Below, piece after piece: positions 60,577 to 64,000 of a stretch of DNA of 64,000 bases. Position 1 is the stretch's first letter. Each line of letters begins with the position of its first letter. The translations under genes were made by a program, and so were the position numbers. The DNA is from Olsenella uli. GTDB lineage: Bacteria > Actinomycetota > Coriobacteriia > Coriobacteriales > Atopobiaceae. The stretch is from the NCBI RefSeq assembly GCF_016899935.1, contig NZ_JACJJK010000003.1, positions 186,001 to 250,000 of the forward strand. Direction: 5' to 3'. Below the pieces are notes generated by a model. The model ran no database searches, was not told where the DNA came from, and saw only the letters and a list, made by a program, of their open reading frames with translations.

Positions 60577-61263
60577 TCACACCACGAACAGCAGCGCCGA
60601 GAGCGTGATGCAGACGCTGCCGGCCAGCGTGAACAGGTGGAAGACGAAGTGCAGGTAGGGCACCTTCTTGATGGCGTAGAAGACCGCGCCCACGGTGTAG
60701 CTGAGCCCGCCGGCCAGAAGCAGCCAGAACGCGGGCGGCGCCAGAAGCCCCCAGAGGTCGCCGATGCGAAAGACCACGAGCCAGCCCATGAGCACGTAGA
60801 CCACGGCGGTGAGCCAGGCGGGCTGGCGCTCGCGCAGCAGGCACTCGGCCACGATGCCCGCCACGGCCACCGCCCACACGGCCGCGCACAGCTCGAGGCC
60901 GCCGCGCCCGGCGAGCGTGACCAGTGAGAACGGCGCGTAGCTGCCGGCGATGAGCAGGTAGATGCCGCAGTGGTCCAGCACGCGGAACACCGCCTTGCCG
61001 CGCGGCGCGGCGATCGCGTGGTAGAGCGTGGAGAAGAGGTACTCCACGATGAGCGAGACGCCCATGATGATGGCCGCCGCCAGGCGCGCCCCGCCTCCGT
61101 GCGAGACCGCCACCACGATGAGCAGGACCAGCGCCGCGATGCCGAGAAGGACGCCCACCCCGTGGCTCACCGAGTTGGCGATCTCCTCGCCGAGCGAGTA
61201 GAGCCTTGTGCGCAGCGCGGGCCTCTCCGTGCTCGCGGTTCCGGCGTCGTTGGCATCCGCCAT
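60577..61263 (-). CDS. trhA: TrhA/hemolysin III family membrane protein
   Basis: A 228-residue PAQR-type protein with seven hydrophobic segments. Family motifs present: EEIANSVSHGVG, STLYHA, LDHCGIYLLIAGSYAPF and the late KKVPYLHFVFHLFT with two His. Called hemolysin III, it is more likely an energy/lipid-related membrane enzyme. ATG 61263 has AAGGGAGG upstream. Confidence 0.9.
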   Translation of the reverse strand: MADANDAGTASTERPALRTRLYSLGEEIANSVSHGVGVLLGIAALVLLIVVAVSHGGGARLAAAIIMGVSLIVEYLFSTLYHAIAAPRGKAVFRVLDHCGIYLLIAGSYAPFSLVTLAGRGGLELCAAVWAVAVAGIVAECLLRERQPAWLTAVVYVLMGWLVVFRIGDLWGLLAPPAFWLLLAGGLSYTVGAVFYAIKKVPYLHFVFHLFTLAGSVCITLSALLFVV

Positions 61264-62527: not shown

Positions 62528-62556
62528 TTGCGCGGGCGCCGGGGCCCTGCTAACGT
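62528..62556 (+). promoter_or_regulatory. Promoter of the Met leader and met transporter (TTGCGC-17-TAACGT)
   Basis: TTGCGC (62528-62533), spacer 17, TAACGT (62551-62556). The transcript should start near 62563-62564, that is at the ATG of the leader peptide, which predicts a leaderless message. Confidence 0.5.
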
Positions 62557-62563
62557 AGCCACC

Positions 62564-62680
62564 ATGAAGAGCGCTGTCGCACATATCACGATGATGATGG
62601 TCATGGAGATGCCCAAGCCCGGGCACTCTGCCGTGCCGTGCGCGCGTCGCGCGGGCGGGGAGACCGGGCGCCTTCACTAG
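62564..62680 (+). CDS. Met-rich leader peptide of the methionine transporter
   Basis: A 38-codon frame, MKSAVAHITMMMVMEMPKPG then a Ser/Ala/Arg/Gly-rich remainder to TAG 62678-62680. Six of the first 16 residues are Met, with three in a row, directly upstream of metN/metI. This is the shape of a ribosome-attenuation leader that senses charged tRNA-Met. No ribosome site precedes it and the predicted transcription start is at or beside its ATG, so it would be read leaderless. The region after the stop can form a hairpin at 62693-62708. Attenuation is inferred. Confidence 0.55.
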   Translation: MKSAVAHITMMMVMEMPKPGHSAVPCARRAGGETGRLH

Positions 62681-62692
62681 GTCGTCTCCGGC

Positions 62693-62708
62693 GGGAGGCG
62701 GCCCTCCC
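62693..62708 (+). terminator. Possible attenuator hairpin after the leader peptide
   Basis: GGGAGG pairs with CCTCCC around CGGC, followed by TGTTC. A competing arm GGAGAC (62659-62664) with GTCTCC (62684-62689) overlaps the leader stop. A weak but suggestive attenuator layout. Confidence 0.35.
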
Positions 62709-62737
62709 TGTTCACGTCATCGAGCGGAGCCTCGCGC

Positions 62738-63479
<742 letters not shown>

Positions 63480-63487
<8 letters not shown>

Positions 63488-64000
63488 TTTCGTGAACGCC
63501 TTCATCGCCGAGTACGGCGAGCTGCTCGCCGAGGGCACCCTCTCCACCATCGTGATGGTGCTCGTGCCCACGGCCATCTCCTACGTGCTGGGCCTCACGC
63601 TCGGCGTGGTGCTCTATCTCACCGCGCCCGGCTCGCTGCGTCCGATGCCCGTGCTCAATGCCGTGCTCGGCTGGGTGGTCAACATCCTGCGCTCGTTCCC
63701 GTTCATCGTGCTCATGGTGTTCATCATCCCGTTCACCCGAACGGTCATGGGCACGGCGTCGGGTCTCGCGGGCATCATCCCGCCGCTCGTGCTGGCCACC
63801 ACCCCCTTCATTGCGCGCATGGTTGAGCAGTCGCTCGCCGAGGTCCCGCGCGAGAGCGTGGAGGCCGTCGAGGCCTGCGGCGCCAGCGTGCCGCGCATCG
63901 TGTTCTCGGCCCTGTTGCCCGAGGCGCTGCCCTCGATCGTGCGCGGCGTGGCCGTGGTGCTCATCGCCGTGCTCGGCTACACGGCCATGGCGGGCGCCAT
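63480..64000 (+). CDS. metI: Methionine ABC transporter permease (3' partial)
   Basis: Begins at ATG 63480 inside the end of metN and runs off the window. The 173 visible residues start MPDFVNAFIAEYGELLAEGTL, with several hydrophobic helices and the coupling motif VEACGASVPRIVFSALLPEALPSIV, typical of MetI-type permeases that contact the ATPase. The MetQ binding lipoprotein would be expected downstream. Confidence 0.9.

Follow-up and report, generated by a model that had tools for sequence, protein, structure and literature searches.

The metNIQ locus and its leader

The window (the whole stretch of DNA analysed, 64,000 nucleotides) ends inside an operon which, judged from its predicted products, is that of the methionine importer MetNIQ. 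A promoter and a short reading frame precede the first gene:

62528..62556, + strand: predicted metN operon promoter, TTGCGC-17-TAACGT (TTGCGC 62528-62533, 17-nt spacer, TAACGT 62551-62556; then 7 nt to the ATG at 62564)
62564..62680, + strand: leader ORF, predicted to be leaderless, MKSAVAHITMMMVMEMPKPGHSAVPCARRAGGETGRLH and stop codon; recurs upstream of metN at about 100 loci, with an in-frame start in 79/79
62591..62611, + strand: Met codons (putative sensor), at 62591, 62594, 62597, 62603 and 62609
62722..62729, + strand: ribosome binding region of metN, GAGCGGAG, read from the sequence and kept in the leader alignments
62738..63487, + strand: metN, methionine ABC transporter ATPase, short form (TIGR02314, 304.7 bits, below the cut-off of that full-length model; PF00005)
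63480..64000, + strand, continuing past the window end: metI permease (NF008049, 143 bits; PF00528)

The start of metI overlaps the 3' end of metN, and a metQ-type NlpA lipoprotein gene (PF03180) comes after metI. The window MetN falls under the TIGR02314 cut-off because it is short, lacking what the model has at its C-terminus. The genome is of Atopobiaceae type, and the closest named metN records are those of Thermophilibacter and Olsenella. A gene for a PAQR/TrhA (hemolysin III family) membrane protein lies at 60577-61263 on the minus strand. An earlier note on this DNA had placed a Met-rich frame directly before metN, and this was borne out: the frame has six Met among its first 16 codons, and metN starts 57 nt after the leader stop codon. 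The sequence that the note had read as a promoter upstream of the leader ATG is likewise present; a strict sigma-70 scan of the window did not flag it.

Distribution of the leader

Orthologues of metN were collected from other genomes together with their upstream DNA, and a covariance model built from 25 leaders was searched over 399 genomes of the order, the matches being inspected. The third family, f2, which is probably Eggerthellaceae, was covered via its metN orthologues; a hand-written MetN-like probe (start from L113, rest generic) served only to retrieve metN loci. The leader was found at 104 loci (a few genomes are counted twice), corresponding to about 80 distinct leaders in three families of Coriobacteriales, and all of them directly precede a metN-type ORF. 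Examples are MFTVAAHIAMMMVMEMPSPGHFAMP... in Coriobacteriaceae, MNTYGLTQMARMMEMPKPGHLS... in the window's own family and MSSLFVHTMDMMMPKPGLVGLRADAQA, which ends at a stop codon, in f2. Since 20 other genomes of the same genus and two further families also have the leader upstream of metN, its occurrence is far beyond chance. In the window's own genome the model matches once only.

Within the genus, genomes with a clear orthologue of the window metN carry the leader, with the exception of G020, whose contig begins inside metN. Those without the leader lack a metN of the window type, with the exception of G026, which has a 57%-identical metN and no leader. When a phylum-wide sample was searched with the covariance model, no true match was obtained outside Coriobacteriales; the sole match there (G667) lies within a coding gene and was put down to chance. 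The matches L116, L118, L119 and L120 and a second match in L046 were also rejected as chance, as they lie in long coding frames or lack the leader.

Some metN genes of the order stand without the Met leader, namely those of Olsenella profusa (L177), Parafannyhessea umbonata (L187) and Atopobium deltae (L190). Inspection by eye of the P. umbonata locus disclosed, behind a promoter before metN, a leader-like ORF (MFLLVLPIGEPSGDYLLVA and stop codon) without internal Met, which we read as a natural loss of the Met cluster. The O. profusa genome (G035) combines a metN free of the leaderless peptide with a sub-threshold SAM-riboswitch match on another contig, and an exchange of regulatory systems is possible in this species. 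In f2, a more distant metN (55% identity, L137) is preceded by a different leaderless Met-rich ORF, MKTTLNINIFFMMPQMM and stop codon, followed by a hairpin, TAGGCCTTGGCCTA; this ORF is possibly an independent or a degenerate Met leader.

Predicted leaderless start

The leader ATG was picked without regard to frame, the sole criterion being how far it lay from a TAnnnT hexamer that has a −35-like box before it (L100 and L110 lay beyond the limits of the start-picking script and were placed by eye). Of the 79 distinct leaders, 74 had a gap of 7-8 nt between the −10 hexamer and the ATG and the others one of 6, 9 or 10 nt, and most had a TTGnnn-like box 16-18 nt from the −10 hexamer. By this geometry the transcript would therefore start at the AUG or 1-2 bases from it. 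The earlier claim of leaderless translation was kept as a prediction, the gap being 6-10 nt in 79/79 and the transcript start a prediction from promoter spacing. The ATG picked from the promoter was in frame with the Met cluster and the AUGCCC anchor in 79/79 distinct leaders, at a distance of 30-60 nt from the anchor that was a multiple of three every time.

Nearly all leaders of the three families have His, or sometimes Gln, as codon 7 (62582-62584 within 62564-62590); it is surrounded by the nucleotides around ACAUA, about 20 nt after the leader start. This conserved codon might perhaps serve leaderless initiation or a pause.

Conservation of the Met codons

The earlier note had proposed a comparison of the Met cluster among relatives, and the Met codons proved to be conserved in all three families. 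In 77 distinct peptides Met occupied codon 0 in 100%, codon −2 in 87%, codon −4 in 70%, codon −5 in 61% and codon −6 in 52%, the first figure arising partly because codon 0 (AUGCCC) is the alignment anchor. With start and anchor left out, 23.5% of the codons before the anchor were Met. The number of internal Met codons reaches seven per leader in Coriobacteriales; leaders of genus g54 keep the RNA blocks yet have only two, and some other distinct leaders keep the RNA with only two or three. The Met codons are, in these alignments, the conserved feature of the leader peptide. Besides the Met run, the most conserved parts are the RNA blocks around it, AUGCCCnnGCCCGGGCA, GAGACCGGGCGCC and CUCCGGCGGGAG.

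Competing RNA helices downstream of the Met codons

The following segments and hairpins were delineated in the window:

62610..62614, + strand: segment a (UGCCC), partner of the GGGCA in b; compensatory UGCUC/GAGCA in L111 and UGCUU/AAGCA in L117
62617..62628, + strand: segment b (GCCCGGGCACUC), partner of a or c; compensatory pairs
62660..62672, + strand: segment c (GAGACCGGGCGCC), partner of b, alternatively pairs with downstream bases; GAGACCGGGCG invariant in alignment A1
62680..62703, + strand: hairpin A, GGUCGUCUCC(GGCG)GGAGGCGGCC, 10 bp; opens on the final base of the stop codon
62693..62708, + strand: hairpin B, GGGAGG(CGGC)CCUCCC then UGUU, terminator-like; uses the 3' arm of A and excludes A

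The helices a:b and b:c are mutually exclusive, as are hairpins A and B, and all are conserved. The hairpin that the earlier note had seen after the leader stop is hairpin A, with the consensus GGNNNNCUCC(GGCR)GGAGNNNNCC; f2 leaders carry another kind of downstream hairpin. The consensus structure obtained with RNAalifold consisted of b:c, with a variable tip, and hairpin A. The pairing probability of b:c was 0.985, compared with 0.63 when the downstream sequence was shuffled, and exceeded 0.9 in 93 of the 97 sequences. In the unfitted alignment A1, 94.1% of the cells were paired, with 31 double changes versus 8.7 in shuffles. Alignment A2, which was fitted to the covariance model so that its pair counts lean towards the structure, and which contains a few chance matches, gave 282 double-changed cells, where shuffles gave 62.6 and slid controls 25-56; here 10/10 pairs of hairpin A showed two-sided changes. 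In distant families b:c is kept with other letters (GCCUGGG/CUCAGGC, GCCCGAG/CUUGGGC and GCCCAAG/UUUGGGC). Segment c is retained even in L012-L015, whose stop codon comes before it, and is thus an RNA element. Free folding of the window leader by itself gave a modest z-score (−1.7); the case for an RNA switch is a comparative one. On this comparative basis, a putative and previously undescribed RNA switch with competing helices is well supported downstream of the Met codons.

Two further pairings were set aside as general rules. That of the 5' arm of hairpin A with the metN ribosome binding region is lost with CUCC in L015, L027 and L097 (by eye), and a long-range c:d terminator was seen in the window, the partners of c varying by lineage so that no general claim is made for it.

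The invariant block AUGCCCnnGCCCGGGCA and the conserved peptide motif MPxPG would speak for direct binding of methionine or SAM, by a riboswitch or an arrest peptide, the Met codons being secondary. However, the x codon of MPxPG varies (AAG, TCG, TTG, ACG, CAG) save in its third base, which belongs to segment b: the first two bases of the Lys codon of MPKPG are free (K/S/T/L/Q), and the third is fixed. In L111 and L117 the motif becomes MLKPE or MLKPK (Pro to Leu) with a compensating change in the RNA partner. Since x varies and these two leaders keep the pairing, the constraint acts on RNA pairs and not on the peptide. Moreover, the tip of the b:c helix is variable in both length and sequence, which an aptamer would not be, and none of the Rfam families, the SAM riboswitch (RF00162) and the T-box (RF00230) among them, matched the leader in the window or in six diverse relatives. 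We consider direct binding very unlikely. SAM-I riboswitches (RF00162) were found in 0 of 31 genomes of the window's genus and in none of the three Coriobacteriaceae genomes searched; they do occur in other families of Coriobacteriales. A weak partial T-box match (G000:C121:25136-25230, 31 bits, below cut-off) is the only one in the window's own genome, lies on another contig than the leader and recurs in genomes of the same genus.

The spacing of the RNA segments also bears on the frame. In the two families with an ACCGGGC-type c, the distance from b to c where the ORF spans c is 52, 55, 58, 61 or 70, in steps of three, with one exception (L096), and where the stop precedes c all three phases occur. 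The leader is a reading frame, predicted to be translated. A conserved ORF whose C-terminal GETGRLH is kept in many leaders might instead encode a small functional peptide, or be a spurious frame over conserved RNA. Yet the C-terminal half is lost where the stop shifts upstream and the RNA stays, the peptide has no match in Pfam or NCBIfam, and frame and Met codons are conserved beyond the needs of the RNA, all of which makes either possibility scarcely credible.

Predicted effect of ribosome position

The effect of a ribosome was computed by masking the RNA under it and then calculating pairing probabilities, and the helix favoured by each position is a computed one. With the A site on the Met codon at 62603 (codon −2, the most conserved), P(b:c) was 0.99 and P(A) 0.98 in the window; for a ribosome that has reached the stop codon P(B) was 0.98, P(A) = 0 being built into the mask in this position. 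Without a ribosome, the a:b helix and hairpin A formed (0.99 each). Stalls on the three earlier Met codons led to mixtures, with P(b:c) of 0.45-0.71. A stall on the last Met puts the mask over b; neither b:c nor B then formed, and most of A was lost (P 0.16). For the 58 relatives whose stop lies at the base of A, a stall gave P(b:c) 0.98, P(A) 0.82 and P(B) 0.12, and a ribosome at the stop gave P(B) 0.75.

In the commonest arrangement the last base of the stop codon is the first base of hairpin A, which is the position that an attenuation model requires. In 13 of 71 sequences the stop is upstream of c; a ribosome terminating there would leave hairpin A intact, and these leaders do not fit the step from A to B.

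In Coriobacteriaceae, hairpin B has a 6-bp GC stem (GGCGGG..CCCGCC) followed by a U-tract (in L047, UUCUUUUU). Hairpins with at least four U in eight positions were found in 23 of 71 sequences versus 2.1 expected from shuffles, and 20 of these 23 begin at most 4 nt from the start of the loop motif of A. The U-tract of hairpin B is poor in the window and its genus (UGUUCACG), a strict terminator scan of the window gave no match, and in some lineages no terminator-like hairpin with a U-tract was found. The same Met leader and stalling could have another readout, either Rho-dependent termination or control of metN translation via the ribosome binding region GAGCGGAG. The poor U-tract in the window's genus, the lack of U directly after hairpin A and the strong conservation of that binding region speak for such a readout, as does the precedent of the Streptomyces metL and mycobacterial Cys leaders, which are likewise without clear terminators. 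We nevertheless regard it as rather unlikely: the GC-rich, U-tailed hairpin B of Coriobacteriaceae overlaps hairpin A exactly, and in a non-systematic look at the folds no conserved helix involving the metN ribosome binding region was noticed. Transcription attenuation by hairpin B is the readout that we slightly favour.

Proposed mechanism

We propose that transcription starts at the leader AUG and that the ribosome loads straight onto it. When charged tRNA-Met is short, the ribosome would stall among the Met codons, above all at the position two codons ahead of AUGCCC; covering a and leaving b free, it would allow b:c and hairpin A to form, so that no terminator arises and transcription continues into metNIQ. 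With ample methionine, the ribosome would pass b and c, reach the stop at the base of A and mask the 5' arm of A. Hairpin B, which overlaps the 3' arm of A and carries a U-tract in Coriobacteriaceae, would then form and transcription would stop. Charged tRNA-Met as the signal, the ON/OFF direction and transcription termination as the readout are what we infer from this arrangement.

Altogether, the conserved Met codons, the conserved −10-to-ATG gap and the competing hairpins between which a stalled and a terminating ribosome would choose agree with the ribosome-mediated attenuation that the earlier note had suggested. That leaderless, Met-codon-dependent attenuation of this kind controls metNIQ is, in our view, probable, and the sensing part of the model very probably holds.

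Methionine shortage should lower the charging of both initiator and elongator tRNA, and hence initiation too, a point against the model. Hairpin A still forms when the window is folded without a ribosome, however, and the switch could therefore be ON even when translation is lacking. We tentatively suggest, with more doubt than confidence, that a default-ON Met attenuator is ancestral to much of Coriobacteriales, being OFF only with a ribosome at the leader stop and ON when the ribosome is stalled or absent. Such a logic, if true, would solve the problem that Met shortage also starves initiation of fMet-tRNA. In this respect the E. coli trp attenuator differs from the proposed Met switch, as it is not ON without translation.

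Comparison with known systems

Leader-peptide attenuation is well known for other amino acids and hardly for methionine; a deeply conserved Met attenuator would extend its amino-acid range. It would also provide a natural setting in which to study how cells tell a shortage of elongator tRNA-Met from one of initiator tRNA-Met, and would explain how the common gut genera Collinsella, Olsenella, Thermophilibacter and their relatives adjust methionine uptake without the SAM riboswitch, of which the 31 own-genus and three Coriobacteriaceae genomes searched gave no example. With attenuation of the trp/his/ilv/leu type, the leader shares codons of the regulated amino acid in a short ORF, exclusive helices and a deciding ribosome position; it differs in that the amino acid is methionine, the ORF is leaderless by promoter spacing and the stop lies at the base of the anti-terminator hairpin in most members. 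Its presumed mode of action and its class membership agree, since it has the testable features of attenuators except a universal terminator. Canestrari and others reportedly described, in 2020, leaderless polycysteine sORFs of mycobacteria. These too are short leaderless ORFs of Actinomycetota with a codon run of the regulated amino acid; there it is cysteine, and no conserved hairpins are reported (PMC1262725), whereas the Met leader has them. Other actinobacterial cases of attenuation are the Corynebacterium ilvBNC uORF (PMC10272879, PMC11857589) and trp in Streptomyces and Corynebacterium (PMC1262725).

Other bacteria control methionine uptake or synthesis by SAM-I riboswitches (RF00162) and T-boxes (RF00230). 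In Actinobacteria, a survey published in 2005 saw no RNA structure upstream of methionine genes (PMC1262725), and in the openly licensed literature the only methionine leader-peptide attenuator that we found is a proposed one, the leaderless metL leader before metNIQ of Streptomyces lividans TK24, whose termination was called 'unclear' (PMC8079986). The earlier note had set the window's leader apart from the SAM riboswitch and the T-box; this distinction stands, as neither matches at the leader, but the novelty it implied is softened by the prior proposal of metL (PMC8079986). Both leaders are actinobacterial and leaderless, contain Met codons and precede metNIQ. The metL peptide (MSTTSDRTPATEATTTPGARCMCRRMCAF and stop codon) has two internal Met and no MPKPG block and comes from one species (PMC8079986), whereas the Coriobacteriales leader can have as many as seven internal Met codons, is deeply conserved and comes with alternative helices that have been defined. 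The Coriobacteriales leader is thus far better supported than S. lividans metL, and has a new RNA architecture.
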